Below, one piece after another: positions 1 through 64,000 of a DNA stretch of 64,000 nucleotides (position 1 is the stretch's first letter; every line of letters starts with the position of its first letter). Below the pieces are notes generated by a model. It had not been told where the DNA came from and did not search any database. It worked only from the letters and a program-made list of their open reading frames with translations. The position numbers were made by a program, and so were the translations under genes. This DNA is from Brachyhypopomus gauderio (lineage: Eukaryota > Chordata > Actinopteri > Gymnotiformes > Hypopomidae), in NCBI RefSeq assembly GCF_052324685.1, contig NW_027506901.1, positions 1,156,001 to 1,220,000 of the forward strand. The letters are read 5' to 3'.

Positions 1-323
1 TATGTCTTATCATGCAGTGATGCTGAGTGAGGTGACTTGCACCTGTACCCTTGATTTTGAAAGTTGCATAAGAAAGATCTGCAATCAATAGATCAAACGC
101 CACATCTCACTTTTGATTCACAGAATGCCACGCTTTTGAACACCTGATCACCTGGAGTTGATACCAGCTTGAAGTTAACAGTGAGTAGACTCTTATGGAG
201 ATTCATGTATTTGAATTTACTTCTTAAGCCATTGGCAACTCATAAGCAATCACATCTGTGCACTCCTCCTTGAGCTTGAGGAAGTCAAAGGAATTGATCT
301 CGATTCTACTCCTACACATTTGG

Positions 324-405
324 TCTGCAATGGCCGAGAGGTTAAGGCGTTGGACTTGAAATCCAATGGGGTTTCCCCGCGCAGGTTCGACTCCTGCTTG
401 CAGTG
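324..405 (+). tRNA. tRNA-Ser-TGA: tRNA-Ser(TGA), monomer 1
   Basis: A class II tRNA with the long variable arm (GGGG-TTT-CCCC) that marks serine, and discriminator G73. The anticodon is TGA at 357-359, which would decode UCA (and related UCN codons). It differs from the CGA genes of this array essentially at C34 to T and base 1 G to T, so it looks like a derivative of them rather than an ordinary vertebrate Ser-TGA gene. Base 72 is also T (gcagtg), so the first pair is U1-U72. A and B boxes are intact. Serine charging depends on the long arm and G73, so identity should survive the anticodon change. Whether the unpaired 5' end is processed by RNase P is open. Confidence 0.86.
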
Positions 406-588
406 TAGAGAAGAAAATGTTGTATCCCTTTTTGGATGTGTGGTAAAATAGAGTCTACTCTCCTCATGGTTGCCAGTTTTTAATATGCTTCTCATGCCAT
501 TTGTAAATTTGTGCTGTCAAACTGTAGCAGTCCAGTGGAAAGACTGTCTGGTCACTGGTTTCTCTGCCTTGTGCTTAAAAAGAAAGAA

Positions 589-642
589 CTCCCCGGTCTT
601 CCGCGTGACAGGCAGAGATACTATCCACTATACTAACGAGGA
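589..642 (-). pseudogene. tRNA-Asp-GTC: tRNA-Asp pseudogene, monomer 1 (18-bp deletion)
   Basis: 54 nt instead of 72. Eighteen bases between two CCCC runs are gone, removing the T arm and the B box. C29 is also changed to T. D and anticodon arms remain. No normal transcription or folding is expected. Confidence 0.92.
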
Positions 643-967
643 CGTATGTCTTATCATGCAGTGATGCTGAGTGAGGTGACTTGCACCTGTACCCTTGATT
701 TTGAAAGTTGCATAAAAAAGATCTGCAATCAATAGATCAAACGCCACATCTCACTTTTGATTCACAGAATGCCACGCTTTTGAACACCTGATCACCTGGA
801 GTTGATACCAGCTTGAAGTTAACAGTGAGTAGACTCTTATGGAGATTCATGTATTTGAATTTACTTCTTAAGCCATTGGCAACTCAGAATCAATGACATC
901 TGTGCACTCCTCCTTGAGCTTGAGGAAGTCAAAGGAATTGATCTCGATTCTACTCCTACACATTTGG

Positions 968-1049
968 GCTGCAATGGCCGAGAGGTTAAGGCGTTGGACT
1001 CGAAATCCAATGGGGTTTCCCCGCGCAGGTTCGACTCCTGCTTGCAGCG
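968..1049 (+). tRNA. tRNA-Ser-CGA: tRNA-Ser(CGA), monomer 2
   Basis: Full 82-nt class II serine tRNA. The acceptor stem GCTGCAA/TTGCAGC pairs completely and G73 is the serine discriminator. The anticodon stem is TTGGA/TCCAA, the anticodon CGA (1001-1003) reads UCG, the variable arm is GGGG-TTT-CCCC, and the T arm GCAGG-TTCGACT-CCTGC pairs fully. A box and B box match consensus, and T5 follows at 1073-1077. It differs from the vertebrate Ser-CGA consensus mainly by paired changes in the acceptor stem. No intron. This is the ancestral-looking form of the array and should be functional. Confidence 0.96.
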
Positions 1050-1232
1050 TAGAGAAGAAAATATCGTATCCCTTTTTGGATGTGTGGTAAAATAGAGTCT
1101 ACTCTCCTCATGCTTGCCAGTTTTGAATATGCTTCTCATGCCATTTGTAAATTTGTGCTGTCAAACTGTAGCAGTCCAGTGGAAAGACTGTCTGGTCACT
1201 GGTTTCTCTGCCTTGTGCTTAAAAAGAAAGAA

Positions 1233-1304
1233 CTCCCGGTCGGGGAATCGAACCCCGGTCTTCCGCATGACAGGCGGAGATACTATCCACTATACTAACG
1301 AGGA
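1233..1304 (-). tRNA. tRNA-Asp-GTC: tRNA-Asp(GTC), monomer 2
   Basis: Full length, with C68 in place of G, giving a C5-C68 mismatch in the acceptor stem, and U38 in the anticodon loop. The same pair of changes is in monomers 7, 8, 12 and 15. Confidence 0.87.
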
Positions 1305-1629
1305 CGTATGTCTTACCATGCAGTGATGCTGAGTGAGGTGACTTGCACCTGTACCCTTGATTTTGAAAGTTGCATAAGAAAGATCTGCAATCAATAGATC
1401 AAACGCCACATCTCACTTTTGATTCACAGAATGCCACGCTTTTGAACACCTGATCACCTGGAGTTGATACCAGCTTGAAGTTAACAGTGAGTAGACTCTT
1501 ATGGAGATTCATGTATTTGAATTTACTTCTTAAGCCATTGGCAACTCAGAATCAATGACATCTGTGCACTCCTCCTTGAGCTAGAGGAAGTCAAAGGAAT
1601 TGATCTCGATTCTACTCCTACACATTTGG

Positions 1630-1711
1630 GCTGCAATGGCCGAGAGGTTAAGGCGTTGGACTCGAAATCCAATGGGGTTTCCCCGCGCAGGTTCGACTCC
1701 TGCTTGCAGCG
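1630..1711 (+). tRNA. tRNA-Ser-CGA: tRNA-Ser(CGA), monomer 3
   Basis: Consensus body. Confidence 0.95.
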
Positions 1712-1894
1712 TAGAGAAGAAAATATCGTATCCCTTTTTGGATGTGTGGTAAAATAGAGTCTACTCTCCTCATGCTTGCCAGTTTTGAATATGCTTCTCA
1801 TGCCATTTGTAAATTTGTGCTGTCAAACTGTAGCAGTCCAGTGGAAAGACTGTCTGGTCACTGGTTTCTCTGCCTTGTGCTTAAAAAGAAAGAA

Positions 1895-1966
1895 CTCCCC
1901 GTCGGGGAATCGAACCCCAGTCTTCCGCGTGACAGGCGGAGATACTATCCACTATATTAACGAGGA
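1895..1966 (-). tRNA. tRNA-Asp-GTC: tRNA-Asp(GTC), monomer 3, A box altered
   Basis: G10 is A, which removes an invariant A-box base and a D-stem pair. C49 is T (wobble with G65). Transcription may be weak. Confidence 0.8.
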
Positions 1967-2291
1967 CGTATGTCTTATCATGCAGTGATGCTGAGTGAGG
2001 TGACTTGCACCTGTACCCTTGATTTTGAAAGTTGCATAAGAAAGATCTGCAATCAATAGATCAAACGCCACATCTCACTTTTGATTCACAGAATGCCACG
2101 CTTTTGAACACCTGATCACCTGGAGTTGATACCAGCTTGAAGTTAACAGTGAGTAGACTCTTATGGAGATTCATGTATTTGAATTTACTTCTTAAGCCAT
2201 TGGCAACTCATAAGCAATCACATCTGTGCACTCCTCCTTGAGCTTGAGGAAGTCAAAGGAATTGATCTCGATTCTACTCCTACACATTTGG

Positions 2292-3281: not shown

Positions 3282-3586
3282 CAGGTATCACCAAATGGCG
3301 GACCGCGGTCCGGATCCGGACCCGAACGCCGTCCTGTCCGGACCCAATCACATTCCTGATTAACTGGATACGGACCCAAATGCCAAAAAATTTTTAACGG
3401 GAGACTATATTTTAAACCGGAGAATTTATTTTTCAGACGAGTGTTACGTTCGCACCACCCATTTGAGTGTTACGTTCGCCACCCCCCCCCCGCTCAACAA
3501 CTTTCGTTCGCCACCGCGGACCCGGACCTAAGGTCTGAGCTATCTGCCAAAAATGGACCGCGGAGAGATTTAACTGATTACCCCTG
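3282..3586. mobile_element. Non-autonomous hAT-type transposon (MITE), 305 bp
   Basis: The ends are CAGGTATCACC on the left and, read inward from the right, CAGGGGTAATCA, which are imperfect terminal inverted repeats. The element is flanked by a perfect 8-bp target duplication (cactatac). An 8-bp duplication with CAGG termini is typical of the hAT superfamily. Inside are overlapping perfect palindromes at 3300-3311 and 3307-3322, a direct repeat of gagtgttacgttcgc at 3439-3453 and 3465-3479, and a C10 run at 3482-3491. No transposase frame is present, so it would need transposase supplied elsewhere. It splits the Asp gene of monomer 5 and occurs in only one of 97 monomers, so it arrived after most amplification here. 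Confidence 0.92.
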
Positions 3587-12530: not shown

Positions 12531-12537
12531 GCTGCAA

Positions 12538-14516: not shown

Positions 14517-14598
14517 TCTGCAATGGCCGAGAGGTTAAGGCGTTGGACTTGAAATCCAATGGGGTTTCCCCGCGCAGGTTCGACTCCTGCTTGCAGTG
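14517..14598 (+). tRNA. tRNA-Ser-TGA: tRNA-Ser(TGA), monomer 22
   Basis: U1-U72, as in monomer 1. First monomer of the 3954-bp repeat. Confidence 0.85.
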
Positions 14599-14781
14599 TA
14601 GAGAAGAAAATGTTGTATCCCTTTTTGGATGTGTGGTAAAATAGAGTCTACTCTCCTCATGGTTGCCAGTTTTTAATATGCTTCTCATGCCATTTGTAAA
14701 TTTGTGCTGTCAAACTGTAGCAGTCCAGTGGAAAGACTGTCTGGTCACTGGTTTCTCTGCCTTGTGCTTAAAAAGAAAGAA

Positions 14782-14835
14782 CTCCCCGGTCTTCCGCGTG
14801 ACAGGCAGAGATACTATCCACTATACTAACGAGGA
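14782..14835 (-). pseudogene. tRNA-Asp-GTC: tRNA-Asp pseudogene, monomer 22 (18-bp deletion)
   Basis: T arm and B box absent, plus C29 to T; same allele as monomer 1. Confidence 0.92.
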
Positions 14836-15160
14836 CGTATGTCTTATCATGCAGTGATGCTGAGTGAGGTGACTTGCACCTGTACCCTTGATTTTGAAAG
14901 TTGCATAAAAAAGATCTGCAATCAATAGATCAAACGCCACATCTCACTTTTGATTCACAGAATGCCACGCTTTTGAACACCTGATCACCTGGAGTTGATA
15001 CCAGCTTGAAGTTAACAGTGAGTAGACTCTTATGGAGATTCATGTATTTGAATTTACTTCTTAAGCCATTGGCAACTCAGAATCAATGACATCTGTGCAC
15101 TCCTCCTTGAGCTTGAGGAAGTCAAAGGAATTGATCTCGATTCTACTCCTACACATTTGG

Positions 15161-15242
15161 GCTGCAATGGCCGAGAGGTTAAGGCGTTGGACTCGAAATC
15201 CAATGGGGTTTCCCCGCGCAGGTTCGACTCCTGCTTGCAGCG
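15161..15242 (+). tRNA. tRNA-Ser-CGA: tRNA-Ser(CGA), monomer 23
   Basis: Consensus body. Confidence 0.95.
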
Positions 15243-15425
15243 TAGAGAAGAAAATGTTGTATCCCTTTTTGGATGTGTGGTAAAATAGAGTCTACTCTCC
15301 TCATGCTTGCCAGTTTTGAATATGCTTCTCATGCCATTTGTAAATTTGTGCTGTCAAACTGTAGCAGTCCAGTGGAAAGACTGTCTGGTCACTGGTTTCT
15401 CTGCCTTGTGCTTAAAAAGAAAGAA

Positions 15426-15497
15426 CTCCCTGTCGGGGAATCGAACCCCGGTCTTCCGCGTGACAGGCGGAGATACTATCCACTATACTAACGAGGA
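15426..15497 (-). tRNA. tRNA-Asp-GTC: tRNA-Asp(GTC), monomer 23
   Basis: G68 is A: C5-A68 mismatch in the acceptor stem. Confidence 0.87.
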
Positions 15498-15822
15498 CGT
15501 ATGTCTTATCATGCAGTGATGCTGAGTGAGGTGACTTGCACCTGTACCCTTGATTTTGAAAGTTGCATAAGAAAGATCTGCAATCAATAGATCAAACGCC
15601 ACATCTCACTTTTGATTCACAGAATGCCACGCTTTTGAACACCTGATCACCTGGAGTTGATACCAGCTTGAAGTTAACAGTGAGTAGACTCTTATGGAGA
15701 TTCATGTATTTGAATTTACTTCTTAAGCCATTGGCAACTCATAAGCAATCACATCTGTGCACTCCTCCTTGAGCTTGAGGAAGTCAAAGGAATTGATCTC
15801 GATTCTACTCCTACACATTTGG

Positions 15823-15904
15823 TCTGCAATGGCCGAGAGGTTAAGGCGTTGGACTTGAAATCCAATGGGGTTTCCCCGCGCAGGTTCGACTCCTGCTTGC
15901 AGCG
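15823..15904 (+). tRNA. tRNA-Ser-TGA: tRNA-Ser(TGA), monomer 24
   Basis: U1-C72 mismatch; otherwise consensus. Confidence 0.88.
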
Positions 15905-16087
15905 TAGAGAAGAAAATGTTGTATCCCTTTTTGGATGTGTGGTAAAATAGAGTCTACTCTCCTCATGGTTGCCAGTTTTTAATATGCTTCTCATGCCATT
16001 TGTAAATTTGTGCTGTCAAACTGTAGCAGTCCAGTGGAAAGACTGTCTGGTCACTGGTTTCTCTGCCTTGTGCTTAAAAAGAAAGAA

Positions 16088-16159
16088 CTCCCCGTCGGGG
16101 AACCGAACCCCGGTCTTCCGCGTGACAGGCGGAGATACTATCCACTATACTAACGAGGA
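16088..16159 (-). tRNA. tRNA-Asp-GTC: tRNA-Asp(GTC), monomer 24
   Basis: A58G. The upstream flank carries gcaggg in place of gcagtg, a mark seen only here and in monomers 30 and 36. Confidence 0.83.
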
Positions 16160-16484
16160 CGTATGTCTTATCATGCAGGGATGCTGAGTGAGGTGACTTG
16201 CACCTGTACCCTTGATTTTGAAAGTTGCATAAAAAAGATCTGCAATCAATAGATCAAACGCCACATCTCACTTTTGATTCACAGAATGCCACGCTTTTGA
16301 ACACCTGATCACCTGGAGTTGATACCAGCTTGAAGTTAACAGTGAGTAGACTCTTATGGAGATTCATGTATTTGAATTTACTTCTTAAGCCATTGGCAAC
16401 TCAGAATCAATGACATCTGTGCACTCCTCCTTGAGCTTGAGGAAGTCAAAGGAATTGATCTCGATTCTACTCCTACACATTTGG

Positions 16485-16566
16485 GCTGCAATGGCCGAGA
16501 GGTTAAGGCGTTGGACTCGAAATCCAATGGGGTTTCCCCGCGCAGGTTCGACTCCTGCTTGCAGCG
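16485..16566 (+). tRNA. tRNA-Ser-CGA: tRNA-Ser(CGA), monomer 25
   Basis: Consensus body. Confidence 0.95.
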
Positions 16567-16749
16567 TAGAGAAGAAAATGTTGTATCCCTTTTTGGATGT
16601 GTGGTAAAATAGAGTCTACTCTCCTCATGCTTGCCAGTTTTGAATATGCTTCTCATGCCATTTGTAAATTTGTGCTGTCAAACTGTAGCAGTCCAGTGGA
16701 AAGACTGTCTGGTCACTGGTTTCTCTGCCTTGTGCTTAAAAAGAAAGAA

Positions 16750-16821
16750 CTCCGCGTCGGGGAATCGAACCCCGGTCTTCCGCGTGACAGGCGGAGATAC
16801 TATCCACTATACTAACGAGGA
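16750..16821 (-). tRNA. tRNA-Asp-GTC: tRNA-Asp(GTC), monomer 25
   Basis: U4-C69 mismatch. Confidence 0.87.
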
Positions 16822-17146
16822 CGTATGTCTTATCATGCAGTGATGCTGAGTGAGGTGACTTGCACCTGTACCCTTGATTTTGAAAGTTGCATAAGAAAGA
16901 TCTGCAATCAATAGATCAAACGCCACATCTCACTTTTGATTCACAGAATGCCACGCTTTTGAACACCTGATCACCTGGAGTTGATACCAGCTTGAAGTTA
17001 ACAGTGAGTAGACTCTTATGGAGATTCATGTATTTGAATTTACTTCTTAAGCCATTGGCAACTCATAAGCAATCACATCTGTGCACTCCTCCTTGAGCTT
17101 GAGGAAGTCAAAGGAATTGATCTCGATTCTACTCCTACACATTTGG

Positions 17147-17228
17147 TCTGCAATGGCCGAGAGGTTAAGGCGTTGGACTTGAAATCCAATGGGGTTTCCC
17201 CGCGCAGGTTCGACTCCTGCTTGCAGCG
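17147..17228 (+). tRNA. tRNA-Ser-TGA: tRNA-Ser(TGA), monomer 26
   Basis: U1-C72 mismatch; otherwise consensus. Confidence 0.88.
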
Positions 17229-17411
17229 TAGAGAAGAAAATGTTGTATCCCTTTTTGGATGTGTGGTAAAATAGAGTCTACTCTCCTCATGGTTGCCAGT
17301 TTTTAATATGCTTCTCATGCCATTTGTAAATTTGTGCTGTCAAACTGTAGCAGTCCAGTGGAAAGACTGTCTGGTCACTGGTTTCTCTGCCTTGTGCTTA
17401 AAAAGAAAGAA

Positions 17412-17483
17412 CTCCCCGTCGGGGAACCGAACCCCGGTCTTCCGCGTGACAGGCGGAGATACTATCCACTATACTAACGAGGA
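17412..17483 (-). tRNA. tRNA-Asp-GTC: tRNA-Asp(GTC), monomer 26
   Basis: A58G. Confidence 0.83.
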
Positions 17484-17808
17484 CGTATGTCTTATCATGC
17501 AGTGATGCTGAGTGAGGTGACTTGCACCTGTACCCTTGATTTTGAAAGTTGCATAAAAAAGATCTGCAATCAATAGATCAAACGCCACATCTCACTTTTG
17601 ATTCACAGAATGCCACGCTTTTGAACACCTGATCACCTGGAGTTGATACCAGCTTGAAGTTAACAGTGAGTAGACTCTTATGGAGATTCATGTATTTGAA
17701 TTTACTTCTTAAGCCATTGGCAACTCAGAATCAATGACATCTGTGCACTCCTCCTTGAGCTTGAGGAAGTCAAAGGAATTGATCTCGATTCTACTCCTAC
17801 ACATTTGG

Positions 17809-17890
17809 GCTGCAATGGCCGAGAGGTTAAGGCGTTGGACTCGAAATCCAATGGGGTTTCCCCGCGCAGGTTCGACTCCTGCTTGCAGCG
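17809..17890 (+). tRNA. tRNA-Ser-CGA: tRNA-Ser(CGA), monomer 27
   Basis: Consensus body. Confidence 0.95.
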
Positions 17891-18073
17891 TAGAGAAGAA
17901 AATGTTGTATCCCTTTTTGGATGTGTGGTAAAATAGAGTCTACTCTCCTCATGCTTGCCAGTTTTGAATATGCTTCTCATGCCATTTGTAAATTTGTGCT
18001 GTCAAACTGTAGCAGTCCAGTGGAAAGACTGTCTGGTCACTGGTTTCTCTGCCTTGTGCTTAAAAAGAAAGAA

Positions 18074-18145
18074 CTCCGCGTCGGGGAATCGAACCCCGGT
18101 CTTCCGCGTGACAGGCGGAGATACTATCCACTATACTAACGAGGA
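18074..18145 (-). tRNA. tRNA-Asp-GTC: tRNA-Asp(GTC), monomer 27
   Basis: U4-C69 mismatch; last gene of the first 3954-bp repeat. Confidence 0.87.
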
Positions 18146-18470
18146 CGTATGTCTTATCATGCAGTGATGCTGAGTGAGGTGACTTGCACCTGTACCCTTG
18201 ATTTTGAAAGTTGCATAAGAAAGATCTGCAATCAATAGATCAAACGCCACATCTCACTTTTGATTCACAGAATGCCACGCTTTTGAACACCTGATCACCT
18301 GGAGTTGATACCAGCTTGAAGTTAACAGTGAGTAGACTCTTATGGAGATTCATGTATTTGAATTTACTTCTTAAGCCATTGGCAACTCATAAGCAATCAC
18401 ATCTGTGCACTCCTCCTTGAGCTTGAGGAAGTCAAAGGAATTGATCTCGATTCTACTCCTACACATTTGG

Positions 18471-18552
18471 TCTGCAATGGCCGAGAGGTTAAGGCGTTGG
18501 ACTTGAAATCCAATGGGGTTTCCCCGCGCAGGTTCGACTCCTGCTTGCAGTG
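18471..18552 (+). tRNA. tRNA-Ser-TGA: tRNA-Ser(TGA), monomer 28
   Basis: U1-U72; counterpart of monomer 22. Confidence 0.85.
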
Positions 18553-18735
18553 TAGAGAAGAAAATGTTGTATCCCTTTTTGGATGTGTGGTAAAATAGAG
18601 TCTACTCTCCTCATGGTTGCCAGTTTTTAATATGCTTCTCATGCCATTTGTAAATTTGTGCTGTCAAACTGTAGCAGTCCAGTGGAAAGACTGTCTGGTC
18701 ACTGGTTTCTCTGCCTTGTGCTTAAAAAGAAAGAA

Positions 18736-18789
18736 CTCCCCGGTCTTCCGCGTGACAGGCAGAGATACTATCCACTATACTAACGAGGA
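18736..18789 (-). pseudogene. tRNA-Asp-GTC: tRNA-Asp pseudogene, monomer 28 (18-bp deletion)
   Basis: T arm and B box absent; counterpart of monomer 22. Confidence 0.92.
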
Positions 18790-19114
18790 CGTATGTCTTA
18801 TCATGCAGTGATGCTGAGTGAGGTGACTTGCACCTGTACCCTTGATTTTGAAAGTTGCATAAAAAAGATCTGCAATCAATAGATCAAACGCCACATCTCA
18901 CTTTTGATTCACAGAATGCCACGCTTTTGAACACCTGATCACCTGGAGTTGATACCAGCTTGAAGTTAACAGTGAGTAGACTCTTATGGAGATTCATGTA
19001 TTTGAATTTACTTCTTAAGCCATTGGCAACTCAGAATCAATGACATCTGTGCACTCCTCCTTGAGCTTGAGGAAGTCAAAGGAATTGATCTCGATTCTAC
19101 TCCTACACATTTGG

Positions 19115-19196
19115 GCTGCAATGGCCGAGAGGTTAAGGCGTTGGACTCGAAATCCAATGGGGTTTCCCCGCGCAGGTTCGACTCCTGCTTGCAGCG
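19115..19196 (+). tRNA. tRNA-Ser-CGA: tRNA-Ser(CGA), monomer 29
   Basis: Consensus body. Confidence 0.95.
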
Positions 19197-19379
19197 TAGA
19201 GAAGAAAATGTTGTATCCCTTTTTGGATGTGTGGTAAAATAGAGTCTACTCTCCTCATGCTTGCCAGTTTTGAATATGCTTCTCATGCCATTTGTAAATT
19301 TGTGCTGTCAAACTGTAGCAGTCCAGTGGAAAGACTGTCTGGTCACTGGTTTCTCTGCCTTGTGCTTAAAAAGAAAGAA

Positions 19380-19451
19380 CTCCCTGTCGGGGAATCGAAC
19401 CCCGGTCTTCCGCGTGACAGGCGGAGATACTATCCACTATACTAACGAGGA
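19380..19451 (-). tRNA. tRNA-Asp-GTC: tRNA-Asp(GTC), monomer 29
   Basis: C5-A68 mismatch. Confidence 0.87.
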
Positions 19452-19776
19452 CGTATGTCTTATCATGCAGTGATGCTGAGTGAGGTGACTTGCACCTGTA
19501 CCCTTGATTTTGAAAGTTGCATAAGAAAGATCTGCAATCAATAGATCAAACGCCACATCTCACTTTTGATTCACAGAATGCCACGCTTTTGAACACCTGA
19601 TCACCTGGAGTTGATACCAGCTTGAAGTTAACAGTGAGTAGACTCTTATGGAGATTCATGTATTTGAATTTACTTCTTAAGCCATTGGCAACTCATAAGC
19701 AATCACATCTGTGCACTCCTCCTTGAGCTTGAGGAAGTCAAAGGAATTGATCTCGATTCTACTCCTACACATTTGG

Positions 19777-19858
19777 TCTGCAATGGCCGAGAGGTTAAGG
19801 CGTTGGACTTGAAATCCAATGGGGTTTCCCCGCGCAGGTTCGACTCCTGCTTGCAGCG
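19777..19858 (+). tRNA. tRNA-Ser-TGA: tRNA-Ser(TGA), monomer 30
   Basis: U1-C72 mismatch; otherwise consensus. Confidence 0.88.
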
Positions 19859-20041
19859 TAGAGAAGAAAATGTTGTATCCCTTTTTGGATGTGTGGTAAA
19901 ATAGAGTCTACTCTCCTCATGGTTGCCAGTTTTTAATATGCTTCTCATGCCATTTGTAAATTTGTGCTGTCAAACTGTAGCAGTCCAGTGGAAAGACTGT
20001 CTGGTCACTGGTTTCTCTGCCTTGTGCTTAAAAAGAAAGAA

Positions 20042-20113
20042 CTCCCCGTCGGGGAACCGAACCCCGGTCTTCCGCGTGACAGGCGGAGATACTATCCACT
20101 ATACTAACGAGGA
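20042..20113 (-). tRNA. tRNA-Asp-GTC: tRNA-Asp(GTC), monomer 30
   Basis: A58G, with the gcaggg flank mark. Confidence 0.83.
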
Positions 20114-20438
20114 CGTATGTCTTATCATGCAGGGATGCTGAGTGAGGTGACTTGCACCTGTACCCTTGATTTTGAAAGTTGCATAAAAAAGATCTGCAAT
20201 CAATAGATCAAACGCCACATCTCACTTTTGATTCACAGAATGCCACGCTTTTGAACACCTGATCACCTGGAGTTGATACCAGCTTGAAGTTAACAGTGAG
20301 TAGACTCTTATGGAGATTCATGTATTTGAATTTACTTCTTAAGCCATTGGCAACTCAGAATCAATGACATCTGTGCACTCCTCCTTGAGCTTGAGGAAGT
20401 CAAAGGAATTGATCTCGATTCTACTCCTACACATTTGG

Positions 20439-47727: not shown

Positions 47728-47809
47728 TCTGCAATGGCCGAGAGGTTAAGGCGTTGGACTTGAAATCCAATGGGGTTTCCCTGCGCAGGTTCGACTCCTG
47801 CTTGCAGCG
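47728..47809 (+). tRNA. tRNA-Ser-TGA: tRNA-Ser(TGA), monomer 73
   Basis: U1-C72 mismatch; G-U in the variable stem. Confidence 0.87.
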
Positions 47810-47992
47810 TAGAGAAGAAAATGTTGTATCCCTTTTTGGATGTGTGGTAAAATAGAGTCTACTCTCCTCATGGTTGCCAGTTTTTAATATGCTTCTCATG
47901 CCATTTGTAAATTTGTGCTGTCAAACTGTAGCAGTCCAGTGGAAAGACTGTCTGGTCACTGGTTTCTCTGCCTTGTGCTTAAAAAGAAAGAA

Positions 47993-48040
47993 CTCCCCGT
48001 CGGAGAATCGAACCCCGGTCTTCCGCGTGACAGGCGGAGA
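47993..48040 (-). pseudogene. tRNA-Asp-GTC: tRNA-Asp pseudogene, monomer 73 (5' 24 nt deleted)
   Basis: Truncated copy, cggaga form. Confidence 0.93.
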
Positions 48041-48337
48041 GTGAGGTGACTTGCACCTGTACCCTTGATTTTGAAAGTTGCATAAAAAAGATCTGCAATC
48101 AATAGATCAAACGCCACATCTCACTTTTGATTCACAGAATGCCACGCTTTTGAACACCTGATCACCTGGAGTTGATACCAGCTGGAAGTTAACAGTGTGT
48201 AGACTCTTATGGAGATTCATGTATTTGAATTTACTTCTTAAGCCATTGGCAACTCAGAATCAATGACATATGTGCACTCCTCCTTGAGCTTGAGGAAGTC
48301 AAAGGAATTGATCTCGATTCTACTCCTACACATTTGG

Positions 48338-48419
48338 GCTGCAATGGCCGAGAGGTTAAGGCGTTGGACTCGAAATCCAATGGGGTTTCCCCGCGCAGGT
48401 TCGACTCCTGCTTGCAGTG
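48338..48419 (+). tRNA. tRNA-Ser-CGA: tRNA-Ser(CGA), monomer 74
   Basis: G1-U72 wobble. Confidence 0.93.
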
Positions 48420-48602
48420 TAGAGAAGAAAATGTTGTATCCCTTTTTGGATGTGTGGTAAAATAGAGTCTACTCTCCTCATGGTTGCCAGTTTTGAATAT
48501 GCTTCTCATGCCATTTGTAAATTTGTGCTGTCAAACTGTAGCAGTCCAGTGGAAAGACTGTCTGGTCACTGGTTTCTCTGCCTTGTGCTTAAAAAGAAAG
48601 AA

Positions 48603-48674
48603 CTCCCCGTCGGGGAATCGAACCCCGGTCTTCCGCGTGACAGGCGGAGATACTATCCACTATACTAACGAGGA
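48603..48674 (-). tRNA. tRNA-Asp-GTC: tRNA-Asp(GTC), monomer 74
   Basis: Consensus body. Confidence 0.96.
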
Positions 48675-48999
48675 CGTATGTTTTATCATGCAGTGATGCT
48701 GAGTGAGGTGACTTGCACCTGTACCCTTGATTTTGAAAGTTGCATTAAAAAGATCTGCAATCAATAGATCAAACGCCACATCTCACTTTTGATTCACAGA
48801 ATGCCACGCTTTTGAACACCTGATCACCTGGAGTTGATACCAGCTTGAAGTTAACAGTGAGTAGACTCTTATGGAGATTCATGTATTTGAATTTACTTCT
48901 TAAGCCATTGGCAACTCAGAATCAATGACATCTGTGCACTCCTCCTTGAGCTTGAGGAAGTCAAAGGAATTGATCTCGATTCTACTCCTACACATTTGG

Positions 49000-49081
49000 G
49001 CTGCAATGGCCGAGAGGTTAAGGCGTTGGACTCGAAATCCAATGGGGTTTCCCCGCGCAGGTTCGACTCCTGCTTGCAGCG
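49000..49081 (+). tRNA. tRNA-Ser-CGA: tRNA-Ser(CGA), monomer 75
   Basis: Consensus body. Confidence 0.95.
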
Positions 49082-49264
49082 TAGAGAAGAAAATGTTGTA
49101 TCCCTTTTTGGATGTGTGGTAAAATAGAGTCTACTCTCCTCATGGTTGCCAGTTTTGAATATGCTTCTCATGCCATTTGTAAATTTGTGCTGTCAAACTG
49201 TTGCAGTCCAGTGGAAAGACTGTCTGGTCACTGGTTTCTCTGCCTTGTGCTTAAAAAGAAAGAA

Positions 49265-49336
49265 CTCCCCGTCGGGGAATCGAGCCCCGGTCTTCCGCGT
49301 GACAGGCGGAGATACTATCCACTATACTAACGAGGA
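49265..49336 (-). tRNA. tRNA-Asp-GTC: tRNA-Asp(GTC), monomer 75
   Basis: T54C. Confidence 0.84.
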
Positions 49337-49661
49337 CGTATGTCTTATCATGCAGTGATGCTGAGTGAGGTGACTTGCACCTGTACCCTTGATTTTGAAA
49401 GTTGCATAAAAAAGATCTGCAATCAATAGATCAAACGCCACATCTCACTTTTGATTCACAGAATGCCACGCTTTTGAACACCTGATCACCTGGAGTTGAT
49501 ACCAGCTTGAAGTTAACAGTGAGTAGACTCTTATGGAGATTCATGTATTTGAATTTACTTCTTAAGCCATTGGCAACTCAGAATCAATGACATCTGTGCA
49601 CTCCTCCTTGAGCTAGAGGAAGTCAAAGGAATTGATCTCGATTCTACTCCTACACATTTGG

Positions 49662-49743
49662 TCTGCAATGGCCGAGAGGTTAAGGCGTTGGACTTGAAAT
49701 CCAATGGGGTTTCCCCGCGCAGGTTCGACTCCTGCTTGCAGCG
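49662..49743 (+). tRNA. tRNA-Ser-TGA: tRNA-Ser(TGA), monomer 76
   Basis: U1-C72 mismatch; CGA-type upstream marker. Confidence 0.88.
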
Positions 49744-49926
49744 TAGAGAAGAAAATATCATATCCCTTTTTGGATGTGTGGTAAAATAGAGTCTACTCTC
49801 CTCATGCTTGCCAGTTTTGAATATGCTTCTCATGCCATTTGTAAATTTGTGCTGTCAAACTGTAGCAGTCCAGTGGAAAGACTGTCTGGTCACTGGTTTC
49901 TCTGCCTTGTGCTTAAAAAGAAAGAA

Positions 49927-49998
49927 CTCCCCGTCGGGGAATCGAACCCCGGTCTTCCGCGTGACAGGCGGAGATACTATCCACTATACTAACGAGGA
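49927..49998 (-). tRNA. tRNA-Asp-GTC: tRNA-Asp(GTC), monomer 76
   Basis: Consensus body. Confidence 0.96.
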
Positions 49999-50323
49999 CG
50001 TATGTCTTATCATGCAGTGATGCTGAGTGAGGTGACTTGCACCTGTACCCTTGATTTTGAAAGTTGCATAAGAAAGATCTGCAATCAATAGATCAAACGC
50101 CACATCTCACTTTTGATTCACAGAATGCCACGCTTTTGAACACCTGATCACCTGGAGTTGATACCAGCTTGAAGTTAACAGTGAGTAGACTCTTATGGAG
50201 ATTCATGTATTTGAATTTACTTCTTAAGCCATTGGCAACTCATAAGCAATCACATCTGTGCACTCCTCCTTGAGCTTGAGGAAGTCAAAGGAATTGATCT
50301 CGATTCTACTCCTACACGTTTGG

Positions 50324-50405
50324 GCTGCAATGGCCGAGAGGTTAAGGCGTTGGACTCGAAATCCAATGGGGTTTCCCCGCGCAGGTTCGACTCCTGCTTG
50401 CAGCG
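50324..50405 (+). tRNA. tRNA-Ser-CGA: tRNA-Ser(CGA), monomer 77
   Basis: Consensus body; private A to G seven bases upstream of the gene (cacgtttg). Confidence 0.95.
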
Positions 50406-50588
50406 TAGAGAAGAAAATGTTGTATCCCTTTTTGGATGTGTGGTAAAATAGAGTCTACTCTCCTCATGGTTGCCAGTTTTGAATATGCTTCTCATGCCAT
50501 TTGTAAATTTGTGCTGTCAAACTGTAGCAGTCCAGTGGAAAGACTGTCTGGTCACTGGTTTCTCTGCCTTGTGCTTAAAAAGAAAGAA

Positions 50589-50660
50589 CTCCCCGTCGGG
50601 GAATCGAACCCCGGTCTTCCGCGTGACAGGCGGAGATACTATCCACTATACTAACGAGGA
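50589..50660 (-). tRNA. tRNA-Asp-GTC: tRNA-Asp(GTC), monomer 77
   Basis: Consensus body; cgtaagcc flank. Confidence 0.96.
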
Positions 50661-50985
50661 CGTAAGCCTTATCATGCAGTGATGCTGAGTGAGGTGACTT
50701 GCACCTGTACCCTTGATTTTGAAAGTTGCATAAGAAAGATCTGCAATCAATAGATCAAACGCCACATCTCACTTTTGATTCACAGAATGCCACGCTTTTG
50801 AACACCTGATCACCTGGAGTTGATACCAGCTGGAAGTTAACAGTGTGTAGACTCTTATGGAGATTCATGTATTTGAATTTACTTCTTAAGCCATTGGCAA
50901 CTCAGAATCAATGACATATGTGCACTCCTCCTTGAGCTTGAGGAAGTCAAAGGAATTGATCTCGATTCTACTCCTACACATTTGG

Positions 50986-51067
50986 GCTGCAATGGCCGAG
51001 AGGTTAAGGCGTTGGACTCGAAATCCAATGGGGTTTCCCCGCGCAGGTTCGACTCCTGCTTGCAGCG
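50986..51067 (+). tRNA. tRNA-Ser-CGA: tRNA-Ser(CGA), monomer 78
   Basis: Consensus body. Confidence 0.95.
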
Positions 51068-51250
51068 TAGAGAAGAAAATGTTGTATCCCTTTTTGGATG
51101 TGTGGTAAAATAGAGTCTACTCTCCTCATGGTTGCCAGTTTTGAATATGCTTCTCATGCCATTTGTAAATTTGTGCTGTCAAACTGTAGCAGTCCAGTGG
51201 AAAGACTGTCTGGTCACTGGTTTCTCTGCCTTGTGCTTAAAAAGAAAGAA

Positions 51251-51322
51251 CTCCCCGTCGGGGAATCGAACCCCGGTCTTCCGCGTGACAGGCGGAGATA
51301 CTATCCACTATACTAACGAGGA
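51251..51322 (-). tRNA. tRNA-Asp-GTC: tRNA-Asp(GTC), monomer 78
   Basis: Consensus body; tgtttt flank. Confidence 0.96.
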
Positions 51323-51647
51323 CGTATGTTTTATCATGCAGTGATGCTGAGTGAGGTGACTTGCACCTGTACCCTTGATTTTGAAAGTTGCATTAAAAAG
51401 ATCTGCAATCAATAGATCAAACGCCACATCTCACTTTTGATTCACAGAATGCCACGCTTTTGAACACCTGATCACCTGGAGTTGATACCAGCTTGAAGTT
51501 AACAGTGAGTAGACTCTTATGGAGATTCATGTATTTGAATTTACTTCTTAAGCCATTGGCAACTCATAAGCAATCACATCTGTGCACTCCTCCTTGAGCT
51601 TGAGGAAGTCAAAGGAATTGATCTCGATTCTACTCCTACACATTTGG

Positions 51648-51729
51648 TCTGCAATGGCCGAGAGGTTAAGGCGTTGGACTTGAAATCCAATGGGGTTTCC
51701 CTGCGCAGGTTCGACTCCTGCTTGCAGCG
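51648..51729 (+). tRNA. tRNA-Ser-TGA: tRNA-Ser(TGA), monomer 79
   Basis: U1-C72 mismatch; G-U in the variable stem. Confidence 0.87.
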
Positions 51730-51912
51730 TAGAGAAGAAAATGTTGTATCCCTTTTTGGATGTGTGGTAAAATAGAGTCTACTCTCCTCATGGTTGCCAG
51801 TTTTTAATATGCTTCTCATGCCATTTGTAAATTTGTGCTGTCAAACTGTAGCAGTCCAGTGGAAAGACTGTCTGGTCACTGGTTTCTCTGCCTTGTGCTT
51901 AAAAAGAAAGAA

Positions 51913-51960
51913 CTCCCCGTCGGAGAATCGAACCCCGGTCTTCCGCGTGACAGGCGGAGA
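51913..51960 (-). pseudogene. tRNA-Asp-GTC: tRNA-Asp pseudogene, monomer 79 (5' 24 nt deleted)
   Basis: Truncated copy, cggaga form. Confidence 0.93.
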
Positions 51961-52257
51961 GTGAGGTGACTTGCACCTGTACCCTTGATTTTGAAAGTTG
52001 CATAAAAAAGATCTGCAATCAATAGATCAAACGCCACATCTCACTTTTGATTCACAGAATGCCACGCTTTTGAACACCTGATCACCTGGAGTTGATACCA
52101 GCTGGAAGTTAACAGTGTGTAGACTCTTATGGAGATTCATGTATTTGAATTTACTTCTTAAGCCATTGGCAACTCAGAATCAATGACATATGTGCACTCC
52201 TCCTTGAGCTTGAGGAAGTCAAAGGAATTGATCTCGATTCTACTCCTACACATTTGG

Positions 52258-52339
52258 GCTGCAATGGCCGAGAGGTTAAGGCGTTGGACTCGAAATCCAA
52301 TGGGGTTTCCCCGCGCAGGTTCGACTCCTGCTTGCAGTG
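52258..52339 (+). tRNA. tRNA-Ser-CGA: tRNA-Ser(CGA), monomer 80
   Basis: G1-U72 wobble. Confidence 0.93.
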
Positions 52340-52522
52340 TAGAGAAGAAAATGTTGTATCCCTTTTTGGATGTGTGGTAAAATAGAGTCTACTCTCCTCA
52401 TGGTTGCCAGTTTTGAATATGCTTCTCATGCCATTTGTAAATTTGTGCTGTCAAACTGTAGCAGTCCAGTGGAAAGACTGTCTGGTCACTGGTTTCTCTG
52501 CCTTGTGCTTAAAAAGAAAGAA

Positions 52523-52594
52523 CTCCCCGTCGGGGAATCGAACCCCGGTCTTCCGCGTGACAGGCGGAGATACTATCCACTATACTAACGAGGA
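52523..52594 (-). tRNA. tRNA-Asp-GTC: tRNA-Asp(GTC), monomer 80
   Basis: Consensus body. Confidence 0.96.
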
Positions 52595-52919
52595 CGTATG
52601 TTTTATCATGCAGTGATGCTGAGTGAGGTGACTTGCACCTGTACCCTTGATTTTGAAAGTTGCATTAAAAAGATCTGCAATCAATAGATCAAACGCCACA
52701 TCTCACTTTTGATTCACAGAATGCCACGCTTTTGAACACCTGATCACCTGGAGTTGATACCAGCTTGAAGTTAACAGTGAGTAGACTCTTATGGAGATTC
52801 ATGTATTTGAATTTACTTCTTAAGCCATTGGCAACTCAGAATCAATGACATCTGTGCACTCCTCCTTGAGCTTGAGGAAGTCAAAGGAATTGATCTCGAT
52901 TCTACTCCTACACATTTGG

Positions 52920-53001
52920 GCTGCAATGGCCGAGAGGTTAAGGCGTTGGACTCGAAATCCAATGGGGTTTCCCCGCGCAGGTTCGACTCCTGCTTGCAGC
53001 G
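52920..53001 (+). tRNA. tRNA-Ser-CGA: tRNA-Ser(CGA), monomer 81
   Basis: Consensus body. Confidence 0.95.
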
Positions 53002-53184
53002 TAGAGAAGAAAATGTTGTATCCCTTTTTGGATGTGTGGTAAAATAGAGTCTACTCTCCTCATGGTTGCCAGTTTTGAATATGCTTCTCATGCCATTTGT
53101 AAATTTGTGCTGTCAAACTGTTGCAGTCCAGTGGAAAGACTGTCTGGTCACTGGTTTCTCTGCCTTGTGCTTAAAAAGAAAGAA

Positions 53185-53256
53185 CTCCCCGTCGGGGAAT
53201 CGAGCCCCGGTCTTCCGCGTGACAGGCGGAGATACTATCCACTATACTAACGAGGA
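53185..53256 (-). tRNA. tRNA-Asp-GTC: tRNA-Asp(GTC), monomer 81
   Basis: T54C. Confidence 0.84.
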
Positions 53257-53581
53257 CGTATGTCTTATCATGCAGTGATGCTGAGTGAGGTGACTTGCAC
53301 CTGTACCCTTGATTTTGAAAGTTGCATAAAAAAGATCTGCAATCAATAGATCAAACGCCACATCTCACTTTTGATTCACAGAATGCCACGCTTTTGAACA
53401 CCTGATCACCTGGAGTTGATACCAGCTTGAAGTTAACAGTGAGTAGACTCTTATGGAGATTCATGTATTTGAATTTACTTCTTAAGCCATTGGCAACTCA
53501 GAATCAATGACATCTGTGCACTCCTCCTTGAGCTAGAGGAAGTCAAAGGAATTGATCTCGATTCTACTCCTACACATTTGG

Positions 53582-53663
53582 TCTGCAATGGCCGAGAGGT
53601 TAAGGCGTTGGACTTGAAATCCAATGGGGTTTCCCCGCGCAGGTTCGACTCCTGCTTGCAGCG
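53582..53663 (+). tRNA. tRNA-Ser-TGA: tRNA-Ser(TGA), monomer 82
   Basis: U1-C72 mismatch; CGA-type upstream marker. Confidence 0.88.
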
Positions 53664-53846
53664 TAGAGAAGAAAATATCATATCCCTTTTTGGATGTGTG
53701 GTAAAATAGAGTCTACTCTCCTCATGCTTGCCAGTTTTGAATATGCTTCTCATGCCATTTGTAAATTTGTGCTGTCAAACTGTAGCAGTCCAGTGGAAAG
53801 ACTGTCTGGTCACTGGTTTCTCTGCCTTGTGCTTAAAAAGAAAGAA

Positions 53847-53918
53847 CTCCCCGTCGGGGAATCGAACCCCGGTCTTCCGCGTGACAGGCGGAGATACTAT
53901 CCACTATACTAACGAGGA
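53847..53918 (-). tRNA. tRNA-Asp-GTC: tRNA-Asp(GTC), monomer 82
   Basis: Consensus body. Confidence 0.96.
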
Positions 53919-54243
53919 CGTATGTCTTATCATGCAGTGATGCTGAGTGAGGTGACTTGCACCTGTACCCTTGATTTTGAAAGTTGCATAAGAAAGATCT
54001 GCAATCAATAGATCAAACGCCACATCTCACTTTTGATTCACAGAATGCCACGCTTTTGAACACCTGATCACCTGGAGTTGATACCAGCTTGAAGTTAACA
54101 GTGAGTAGACTCTTATGGAGATTCATGTATTTGAATTTACTTCTTAAGCCATTGGCAACTCATAAGCAATCACATCTGTGCACTCCTCCTTGAGCTTGAG
54201 GAAGTCAAAGGAATTGATCTCGATTCTACTCCTACACATTTGG

Positions 54244-54325
54244 GCTGCAATGGCCGAGAGGTTAAGGCGTTGGACTCGAAATCCAATGGGGTTTCCCCGC
54301 GCAGGTTCGACTCCTGCTTGCAGCG
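54244..54325 (+). tRNA. tRNA-Ser-CGA: tRNA-Ser(CGA), monomer 83
   Basis: Consensus body on TGA-type upstream marker. Confidence 0.95.
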
Positions 54326-54508
54326 TAGAGAAGAAAATGTTGTATCCCTTTTTGGATGTGTGGTAAAATAGAGTCTACTCTCCTCATGGTTGCCAGTTTT
54401 GAATATGCTTCTCATGCCATTTGTAAATTTGTGCTGTCAAACTGTAGCAGTCCAGTGGAAAGACTGTCTGGTCACTGGTTTCTCTGCCTTGTGCTTAAAA
54501 AGAAAGAA

Positions 54509-54580
54509 CTCCCCGTCGGGGAATCGAACCCCGGTCTTCCGCGTGACAGGCGGAGATACTATCCACTATACTAACGAGGA
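54509..54580 (-). tRNA. tRNA-Asp-GTC: tRNA-Asp(GTC), monomer 83
   Basis: Consensus body; cgtaagcc flank. Confidence 0.96.
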
Positions 54581-54905
54581 CGTAAGCCTTATCATGCAGT
54601 GATGCTGAGTGAGGTGACTTGCACCTGTACCCTTGATTTTGAAAGTTGCATAAGAAAGATCTGCAATCAATAGATCAAACGCCACATCTCACTTTTGATT
54701 CACAGAATGCCACGCTTTTGAACACCTGATCACCTGGAGTTGATACCAGCTGGAAGTTAACAGTGTGTAGACTCTTATGGAGATTCATGTATTTGAATTT
54801 ACTTCTTAAGCCATTGGCAACTCAGAATCAATGACATATGTGCACTCCTCCTTGAGCTTGAGGAAGTCAAAGGAATTGATCTCGATTCTACTCCTACACA
54901 TTTGG

Positions 54906-54987
54906 GCTGCAATGGCCGAGAGGTTAAGGCGTTGGACTCGAAATCCAATGGGGTTTCCCCGCGCAGGTTCGACTCCTGCTTGCAGCG
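54906..54987 (+). tRNA. tRNA-Ser-CGA: tRNA-Ser(CGA), monomer 84
   Basis: Consensus body. Confidence 0.95.
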
Positions 54988-55170
54988 TAGAGAAGAAAAT
55001 GTTGTATCCCTTTTTGGATGTGTGGTAAAATAGAGTCTACTCTCCTCATGGTTGCCAGTTTTGAATATGCTTCTCATGCCATTTGTAAATTTGTGCTGTC
55101 AAACTGTAGCAGTCCAGTGGAAAGACTGTCTGGTCACTGGTTTCTCTGCCTTGTGCTTAAAAAGAAAGAA

Positions 55171-55242
55171 CTCCCCGTCGGGGAATCGAACCCCGGTCTT
55201 CCGCGTGACAGGCGGAGATACTATCCACTATACTAACGAGGA
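55171..55242 (-). tRNA. tRNA-Asp-GTC: tRNA-Asp(GTC), monomer 84
   Basis: Consensus body; tgtttt flank. Confidence 0.96.
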
Positions 55243-55567
55243 CGTATGTTTTATCATGCAGTGATGCTGAGTGAGGTGACTTGCACCTGTACCCTTGATT
55301 TTGAAAGTTGCATTAAAAAGATCTGCAATCAATAGATCAAACGCCACATCTCACTTTTGATTCACAGAATGCCACGCTTTTGAACACCTGATCACCTGGA
55401 GTTGATACCAGCTTGAAGTTAACAGTGAGTAGACTCTTATGGAGATTCATGTATTTGAATTTACTTCTTAAGCCATTGGCAACTCATAAGCAATCACATC
55501 TGTGCACTCCTCCTTGAGCTTGAGGAAGTCAAAGGAATTGATCTCGATTCTACTCCTACACATTTGG

Positions 55568-62083: not shown

Positions 62084-62165
62084 TCTGCAATGGCCGAGAG
62101 GTTAAGGCGTTGGACTTGAAATCCAATGGGGTTTCCCCGCGCAGGTTTGACTCCTGCTTGCAGCG
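62084..62165 (+). tRNA. tRNA-Ser-TGA: tRNA-Ser(TGA), monomer 95, B box altered
   Basis: C56 is T and U1-C72; CGA-type upstream marker. C56T is private among the counterparts of this repeat position, so it is a young change. Confidence 0.8.
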
Positions 62166-62348
62166 TAGAGAAGAAAATATCATATCCCTTTTTGGATGTG
62201 TGGTAAAATAGAGTCTACTCTCCTCATGCTTGCCAGTTTTGAATATGCTTCTCATGCCATTTGTAAATTTGTGCTGTCAAACTGTAGCAGTCCAGTGGAA
62301 AGACTGTCTGGTCACTGGTTTCTCTGCCTTGTGCTTAAAAAGAAAGAA

Positions 62349-62420
62349 CTCCCCGTCGGGGAATCGAACCCCGGTCTTCCGCGTGACAGGCGGAGATACT
62401 ATCCACTATACTAACGAGGA
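62349..62420 (-). tRNA. tRNA-Asp-GTC: tRNA-Asp(GTC), monomer 95
   Basis: Consensus body. Confidence 0.96.
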
Positions 62421-62745
62421 CGTATGTCTTATCATGCAGTGATGCTGAGTGAGGTGACTTGCACCTGTACCCTTGATTTTGAAAGTTGCATAAGAAAGAT
62501 CTGCAATCAATAGATCAAACGCCACATCTCACTTTTGATTCACAGAATGCCACGCTTTTGAACACCTGATCACCTGGAGTTGATACCAGCTTGAAGTTAA
62601 CAGTGAGTAGACTCTTATGGAGATTCATGTATTTGAATTTACTTCTTAAGCCATTGGCAACTCATAAGCAATCACATCTGTGCACTCCTCCTTGAGCTTG
62701 AGGAAGTCAAAGGAATTGATCTCGATTCTACTCCTACACATTTGG

Positions 62746-62827
62746 GCTGCAATGGCCGAGAGGTTAAGGCGTTGGACTCGAAATCCAATGGGGTTTCCCC
62801 GCGCAGGTTCGACTCCTGCTTGCAGCG
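62746..62827 (+). tRNA. tRNA-Ser-CGA: tRNA-Ser(CGA), monomer 96
   Basis: Consensus body on TGA-type upstream marker. Confidence 0.95.
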
Positions 62828-63010
62828 TAGAGAAGAAAATGTTGTATCCCTTTTTGGATGTGTGGTAAAATAGAGTCTACTCTCCTCATGGTTGCCAGTT
62901 TTGAATATGCTTCTCATGCCATTTGTAAATTTGTGCTGTCAAACTGTAGCAGTCCAGTGGAAAGACTGTCTGGTCACTGGTTTCTCTGCCTTGTGCTTAA
63001 AAAGAAAGAA

Positions 63011-63082
63011 CTCCCCGTCGGGGAATCGAACCCCGGTCTTCCGCGTGACAGGCGGAGATACTATCCACTATACTAACGAGGA
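63011..63082 (-). tRNA. tRNA-Asp-GTC: tRNA-Asp(GTC), monomer 96
   Basis: Consensus body; cgtaagcc flank. Confidence 0.96.
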
Positions 63083-63407
63083 CGTAAGCCTTATCATGCA
63101 GTGATGCTGAGTGAGGTGACTTGCACCTGTACCCTTGATTTTGAAAGTTGCATAAGAAAGATCTGCAATCAATAGATCAAACGCCACATCTCACTTTTGA
63201 TTCACAGAATGCCACGCTTTTGAACACCTGATCACCTGGAGTTGATACCAGCTGGAAGTTAACAGTGTGTAGACTCTTATGGAGATTCATGTATTTGAAT
63301 TTACTTCTTAAGCCATTGGCAACTCAGAATCAATGACATATGTGCACTCCTCCTTGAGCTTGAGGAAGTCAAAGGAATTGATCTCGATTCTACTCCTACA
63401 CATTTGG

Positions 63408-63489
63408 GCTGCAATGGCCGAGAGGTTAAGGCGTTGGACTCGAAATCCAATGGGGTTTCCCCGCGCAGGTTCGACTCCTGCTTGCAGCG
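63408..63489 (+). tRNA. tRNA-Ser-CGA: tRNA-Ser(CGA), monomer 97
   Basis: Consensus body; last complete Ser gene. Confidence 0.95.
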
Positions 63490-63672
63490 TAGAGAAGAAA
63501 ATGTTGTATCCCTTTTTGGATGTGTGGTAAAATAGAGTCTACTCTCCTCATGGTTGCCAGTTTTGAATATGCTTCTCATGCCATTTGTAAATTTGTGCTG
63601 TCAAACTGTAGCAGTCCAGTGGAAAGACTGTCTGGTCACTGGTTTCTCTGCCTTGTGCTTAAAAAGAAAGAA

Positions 63673-63744
63673 CTCCCCGTCGGGGAATCGAACCCCGGTC
63701 TTCCGTGTGACAGGCGGAGATACTATCCACTATACTAACGAGGA
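63673..63744 (-). tRNA. tRNA-Asp-GTC: tRNA-Asp(GTC), monomer 97
   Basis: G39 is A, a C31-A39 mismatch closing the anticodon loop (private CpG change). Confidence 0.86.
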
Positions 63745-64000
63745 CGTATGTTTTATCATGCAGTGATGCTGAGTGAGGTGACTTGCACCTGTACCCTTGA
63801 TTTTGAAAGTTGCATTAAAAAGATCTGCAATCAATAGATCAAACGCCACATCTCACTTTTGATTCACAGAATGCCACGCTTTTGAACACCTGATCACCTG
63901 GAGTTGATACCAGCTTGAAGTTAACAGTGAGTAGACTCTTATGGAGATTCATGTATTTGAATTTACTTCTTAAGCCATTGGCAACTCATAAGCAATCACA
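63745..64000. other. Partial monomer 98 (divergent spacer only)
   Basis: The window ends inside the divergent spacer, which carries the cataagcaatcac marker. By the 3920-bp pattern the next gene should be a Ser(TGA) with a truncated Asp partner (inference). Confidence 0.8.

Follow-up and report, generated by a model that had tools for sequence, protein, structure and literature searches.

A tandem array of convergent tRNA-Ser and tRNA-Asp genes in which the genes vary more than the spacers and carry a CpG-decay signature

Introduction

Tandem arrays of tRNA genes are already known, and the described systems are compared here, on the basis of passages from the cited reports, with a locus that fills a 64,000-nucleotide stretch of contig NW_027506901.1 (positions 1,156,001 to 1,220,000; referred to as the window), in which a serine and an aspartate tRNA gene that face each other are repeated head to tail. 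In zebrafish, large clusters of tRNA genes are located on chromosomes 4, 8 and 3, and near-complete CpG methylation of the genes in these clusters was found in 1000-cell and germ-ring embryos (PMC11574265). The isodecoders of the zebrafish egg and early embryo originate from highly repetitive regions and those that rise later from scattered genes, and Asp-GTC is among the tRNAs that switch (PMC11417395). Adjacent tRNA gene pairs in zebrafish and Xenopus are nearly all parallel, the commonest pairs in zebrafish being K-N, K-S and R-T (PMC2888827). For Xenopus, a commentary describes 5-formylcytosine on tandem tRNA genes that are specific to the oocyte (PMC11500080).

The locus shows similarities to the zebrafish chromosome 4 clusters, which have been described as large repetitive groups of tRNA genes with almost complete methylation of CpGs, with early isodecoders encoded in repeats and with Asp-GTC switching (PMC11574265, PMC11075544, PMC11417395), whereas the 662-bp convergent Ser/Asp unit sets it apart; the likeness is one of description and not of sequence. 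A likeness by description also exists to the oocyte tRNA genes of Xenopus, which are tandem, carry modified cytosines and are tied to the transition from egg to embryo (PMC11500080). The tandem non-coding RNA arrays of Hydractinia and Nematostella, which include tRNAs, share with the locus a roughly even spacing, tens to hundreds of near-identical copies and similar spacers, but neither a Ser/Asp unit nor an analysis of CpG decay appears in the passages of that report available to us (PMC11067881). Ser and Asp genes within one tandem unit are found in the tRNA arrays of the protist Entamoeba, among them [SD] and [ASD], with Ser(GCT) and Ser(TGA) there compared to CGA and TGA here; short tandem repeats mark E. 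histolytica and E. dispar, not the whole genus, and are absent from the units described here (PMC2652664). The Arabidopsis SYY cluster is also tandem and contains Ser genes, and it is methylated, silent in most tissues and active in the root tip despite methylation, but it is a plant locus with a Ser/Tyr/Tyr unit (PMC12308677). The human 1q23.3 repeat is likewise a tandem unit with several tRNA genes, but its unit is 7.3 kb long, comprises five tRNA genes, is present 9-43 times per allele and is bound by CTCF (PMC4041453). In the titles and abstract openings listed by searches of one open-access library, only some of them aimed at CpG decay, we found no report of the present unit or of decaying CpGs inside an array of this kind, which is not proof of absence. 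What appears to be new at this locus is the greater variability of the tRNA genes compared to the spacers, mostly via CpG decay.

Organization of the tRNA Gene Array

ARAGORN identified 177 tRNA genes in the window, consisting of 97 tRNA-Ser genes on the forward strand and 80 tRNA-Asp genes on the reverse strand. The Rfam tRNA model likewise gave 177 genes (87 + 90), every one with at least the gathering score. Each monomer, defined as running from the start of one tRNA-Ser gene to the start of the next, contains a tRNA-Ser gene on the forward strand that is faced by a tRNA-Asp(GTC) gene on the reverse strand, and these units with model-recognised genes follow each other head to tail, as in a tandem tRNA gene array. 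The array spans the entire window (1-64000) and continues beyond both of its ends. The 97 Ser starts delimit 96 complete monomers, of which 76 are 662 bp long, ten 610 bp, four 644 bp, two 660 bp, two 597 bp, one 607 bp and one 975 bp. Pairwise identity among the 96 monomers (gaps excluded) is 98.4% on average and 96.2% at minimum. Tandem Repeats Finder is blind to the array as its longest period is 500. The blocks of the array differ from each other by linked substitutions and deletions, and judged from the sequence, these differences speak for a real array, although an assembly artefact is possible. The tRNA bodies are presumably vertebrate-like. A preliminary description of this DNA had recognised a satellite of convergent tRNA-Ser and tRNA-Asp genes, which is borne out by the way in which the two kinds of genes fill the window. 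Its count of at least 97 consecutive 662-bp monomers is nearly correct; the complete monomers number 96 and 20 of these have another length. Its statement that the array holds nothing else but one small transposon agrees with the present analysis, in which a 305-bp insertion (Table 1) is the sole foreign DNA seen in the window.

All 96 monomers have the same A-box region in the Ser gene, and the Ser B box is kept in 89 of them. A run of five T residues (T5) that begins 24 nt downstream of the Ser gene is likewise present in all 96, and a second one, which begins 8 nt downstream of the Asp gene on the minus strand, in 95 of 96. Among the 79 untruncated Asp genes the consensus B box is present in 62 (a variant is found in 17), and the anticodon GTC is retained in all 79 full-length genes. 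In the stems scored, no non-standard pair was found in 58 of the 96 Ser genes and 60 of the 96 Asp genes, where Ser pair 13:22 was omitted from the count because it is non-standard already in the consensus, and where the 60 Asp genes include the copy split by the insertion, which is whole only by alignment. This upholds the earlier observation that most copies still fold as tRNAs, and for Ser genes with a CGA anticodon the proportion without a broken pair reaches 58 of 60. Truncation was found in 17 of the 96 Asp genes; 13 of these share one 52-bp deletion and four share one 18-bp deletion, and the 305-bp insertion splits one further Asp gene. All 17 truncated Asp genes adjoin a Ser gene with a UGA anticodon. 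Taking stem pairs and B box together, no visible damage is present in 56 of 96 Ser genes, in 46 of 96 Asp genes, and in both genes of 35 of 96 monomers.

Variation and CpG Decay

The 96 monomers were aligned to their consensus, and insertions and gap positions were excluded from the variant counts. This analysis listed 77 distinct substitutions across the monomers. Our first expectation, purifying selection on each gene, is contradicted by the finding that the genes vary more than the spacers. Variable sites make up 32 of 154 positions in the tRNA genes compared to 41 of 508 in the spacers (odds ratio 3.0, p = 5e-5; this and the following p values are guides, as distinct variants were counted per site, yet the copies share descent). 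Within the genes, variation is found at 18 of 30 CpG positions compared to 14 of 124 positions outside CpG (odds ratio 11.8, p = 9e-8), and C>T or G>A changes are found at 17 of the 30 CpG positions compared to 6 of 61 other C or G positions (p = 3e-6). The bias is kept by singleton variants, with 6 of 29 at CpG (p = 0.004). For non-CpG sites, the comparison of genes (14/124) with spacer (39/500) gave an odds ratio of 1.5 (95% interval 0.79-2.87; p = 0.21). CpG decay thus accounts for most of the excess variation of the genes.

The observed/expected ratios of spacer dinucleotides are 0.19 for CpG, 1.63 for TpG and 1.27 for CpA. Just 4 CpG remain in the consensus spacer, and none of 2000 mononucleotide shuffles of the spacer was as CpG-poor. 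Depletion of CpG together with an excess of TpG is what the decay of methylated cytosines usually leaves behind, and the mutation spectrum therefore suggests that the array is methylated in the germ line.

The genes contain 15 CpGs, of which 13 have been lost in 1 to 36 copies each. The other two were never lost; one (monomer positions 12-13, 0/96 copies) belongs to the A-box region of the Ser gene and one (282-283, 0/92 copies) to the T loop of the Asp gene.

Serine Anticodon Classes

The anticodon is CGA in 61 and TGA in 36 of the 97 Ser genes. In the Ser gene a CpG begins at position 34, and the step from CGA to TGA is thus one CpG transition. Among the 96 copies in complete monomers, positions 1 and 34 are perfectly linked (G1 with C34 in 60, T1 with T34 in 34 and A1 with T34 in two copies). 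G1 is therefore retained in 60 of 60 CGA copies and absent from 36 of 36 UGA copies, and each of the 36 UGA copies has a non-standard first acceptor pair (T:C in 30, T:T in four and A:C in two). Because this association is perfect, the UGA class looks like a single lineage. As the CGA class has the standard 1:72 pair, we infer that the change ran from CGA to UGA, the reverse being possible in principle. Apart from position 34, the two anticodon classes have 23 variants in common, of which 14 are spacer variants, and for such shared variants recurrent CpG mutation and exchange between the classes are indistinguishable.

A tentative proposal, which we hold to be possible rather than probable, is that methyl-CpG decay in silent tandem tRNA arrays could be a standing source of anticodon change, and that unequal exchange could have multiplied the UGA isoacceptor to about one third of this array, outside per-copy selection. 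If true, the same route acts on every anticodon that contains a CpG. The array is in this respect a concrete candidate for an anticodon switch by CpG decay that was spread by unequal exchange.

Higher-Order Repeats

Within the stretch of monomers 17-37, monomers six apart differ by a mean of 0.8, compared to 10.5 to 10.9 at odd distances. Weaker periods were found in monomers 38-55, with a best value of 5.6 at distance 11, and in monomers 56-96, with values of 5.2 at distance 6 and 5.0 at distance 13. Monomers 1-16 (window 324-11206) displayed no clear period at distances 1-13, as if they were older or closer to the edge of the array. As in the higher-order repeats of satellites, multi-monomer blocks are more alike than neighbouring monomers, and this is clearest in monomers 17-37. 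Leader clustering distinguished 37 monomer types, with recurring six-letter patterns.

Two pairs of successive blocks are listed in Table 1. The pair that begins at 14517 is followed by a third block that is 99.9% identical over 2600 bp, and in the series that begins at 47728 the second and third blocks are only 99.5% identical. Four blocks were checked for their gene content (monomers 22-27, 28-33, 73-78 and 79-84), and each of them contains two or three UGA copies and one truncated Asp gene. Damaged copies are present in all blocks checked and have therefore been multiplied along with the rest.

Interpretation of the Array

We interpret the locus as a tRNA gene array of RNA polymerase III (Pol III) that is methylated in the germ line and kept homogeneous by unequal exchange, in which single copies show little sign of constraint, and that is of a maternal type and otherwise silent; we give this reading as a whole a probability of roughly 0.58. 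The host would be a CpG-methylating, probably vertebrate genome, and the array would consist of real Pol III tRNA genes. Unequal exchange, to which the higher-order repeats point, would copy blocks of several monomers, enlarging and homogenising the array. The CpG decay spectrum suggests that the array is methylated through much of the germ line, and the CpGs of the genes would mutate to TpG or CpA faster than other sites. A single CpG hit may have converted the serine anticodon CGA to UGA, and damaged copies would escape removal one by one and be carried along with whole copies. By analogy with the maternal (oocyte) tRNA clusters of zebrafish and Xenopus, the array may be silent and methylated in most cells and possibly used for bulk stocking of the egg.

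Several observations weigh against this interpretation. CpG positions are variable at 18 of 30 in the genes and 2 of 8 in the spacer, a difference that is not significant (p = 0.12). Non-CpG sites of the Asp gene vary at 10 of 56, which is above the spacer (39/500, p = 0.02), and those of the Ser gene at 4 of 68, which is similar to the spacer (p = 0.81); the difference between the two genes gave p = 0.047. CpG decay is thus not the full account of the variation in Asp, and Ser may be under some constraint. Transcription-associated mutation may contribute in Asp, but pooled non-CpG sites of the genes are not significantly above the spacer and we do not favour this explanation; gene conversion from dispersed tRNA genes may play a part. 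Moreover, the Ser/Asp pair is convergent, whereas the pairs described in zebrafish and Xenopus are nearly all parallel (PMC2888827). Finally, most predicted zebrafish tRNA genes are reported to be inactive or minor in the tRNA pool of the early embryo (PMC11574265), and such inactivity would be compatible with a plain silent satellite as well.

The preliminary description had left open whether the array is a true multi-copy tRNA locus, a selfish satellite or a structural chromatin element. The evidence now favours a mix of the first two, as most copies retain their Pol III promoters and terminators, yet constraint per copy is not detectable, CpG decay dominates and damaged copies recur. A constitutive multi-copy locus, which supplies tRNA-Ser and tRNA-Asp in all tissues and whose copies are kept by selection, would account for the preservation of the Ser A-box region, the T5 runs and the Asp anticodon, for the intact scored stems of nearly all CGA Ser genes and for the few variable non-CpG sites of the Ser gene. 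We consider it quite unlikely, since non-CpG positions of the genes vary about like the spacer, the CpGs of the genes decay, and the higher-order repeats contain, again and again, UGA copies whose first pair is mismatched as well as truncated Asp copies. The undetectable constraint per copy is also what is expected of a selfish or neutral satellite in which the tRNA genes are incidental and upkeep is independent of transcription, and the higher-order repeats of up to 99.97% identity, in which damaged copies are carried along, resemble those of satellites. That the array is such a satellite is nevertheless rather doubtful, given that 35 of 96 monomers keep both genes complete with standard scored pairs and consensus B boxes and that the T5 runs are nearly invariant, yet recent homogenisation alone could account for the intact monomers and the T5 runs.

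It has been proposed for the human 1q23.3 repeat that binding of TFIIIC and Pol III provides a barrier or clustering site, and barrier activity of tRNA genes has been published (PMC4041453). The A and B boxes at regular spacing would suit such a structural element. The B box is variant in 7 of the 96 Ser genes and in 17 of the 79 full-length Asp genes, and no specific support was obtained, which makes this role very improbable. The excess of copies over the needs of translation, to which the preliminary description had drawn attention, is not in itself surprising, as large clusters or arrays have been published, according to the passages available, for zebrafish, Xenopus, newts, Hydractinia, Nematostella and Entamoeba. 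For the interpretation as a methylated, maternal-type array, the sequence alone gives a view of the life of a large tRNA array, which apparently is methylated, recombines and can freely gather damaged copies. Counts of tRNA genes, model-supported ones included, can thus overstate the working set.

Other Features of the Window

The coordinates of the features are collected in Table 1.

Table 1. Positions of the array, example monomers and genes, higher-order repeats and insertion in the window
Feature	Position	Strand	Basis or remark
Tandem array, 96 complete monomers, open at both window ends	1..64000	.	ARAGORN, Ser spacing
tRNA-Ser(TGA), example: anticodon CpG transition and G1>T, first acceptor pair mismatched	324..405	+	
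662-bp monomer, example	968..1629	+	Ser start to next Ser start
tRNA-Ser(CGA), 82 nt, long variable arm	968..1049	+	Rfam 63.9 bits
T5 run, likely Pol III terminator of Ser gene	1073..1077	+	TTTTT in 96/96 monomers
T5 run, likely Pol III terminator of convergent Asp gene	1221..1225	-	AAAAA on +; 95/96 monomers
tRNA-Asp(GTC), 72 nt	1233..1304	-	Rfam 51.5 bits here, 57.5 in best copies
hAT-like non-autonomous insertion, 305 bp, ends CAGG...CCTG, within an Asp gene	3282..3586	.	
Two successive 6-monomer higher-order repeats, 3954 bp each, mutually 99.97% identical	14517..22424	+	each 3 UGA copies, 1 truncated Asp
610-bp monomer, example: 52-bp deletion (monomer positions 312-363), Asp 5' part gone	25055..25664	+	
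Two successive 6-monomer higher-order repeats, 3920 bp each, mutually 99.97% identical	47728..55567	+	each 2 UGA copies, 1 truncated Asp

The 305-bp insertion is flanked by 8-bp direct copies of CACTATAC at 3274-3281 and 3587-3594. A target-site duplication of 8 bp is typical of hAT elements, and the insertion fits a non-autonomous transposon of the hAT type. Its termini CAGG and CCTG were recognised by eye, and the inverted pairs reported by the repeat finder lie near, not at, the ends. The insertion may be young. It is CpG-rich (observed/expected 1.26), in contrast to the surrounding spacer, and has short internal repeats. The single row returned by Tandem Repeats Finder, 43 bp, lies within it, and no short tandem repeats were found between the genes in the units of the window.

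The Asp gene, the Ser gene and the core of the insertion gave 0 exact matches in viral contigs, and one spacer 25-mer gave 0 exact matches in prokaryotic genome contigs, both collections being little informative for such DNA. A diverged segment of roughly 63 bp is common to the two spacers of a monomer (1088-1150 and 1482-1544, or 121-183 and 515-577 in monomer positions), with a local alignment score of 20 that was reached by 0 of 500 mononucleotide shuffles (best shuffle 19). The segment includes a perfect 11-bp inverted repeat (1094-1104/1489-1499) and may go back to an earlier duplication.

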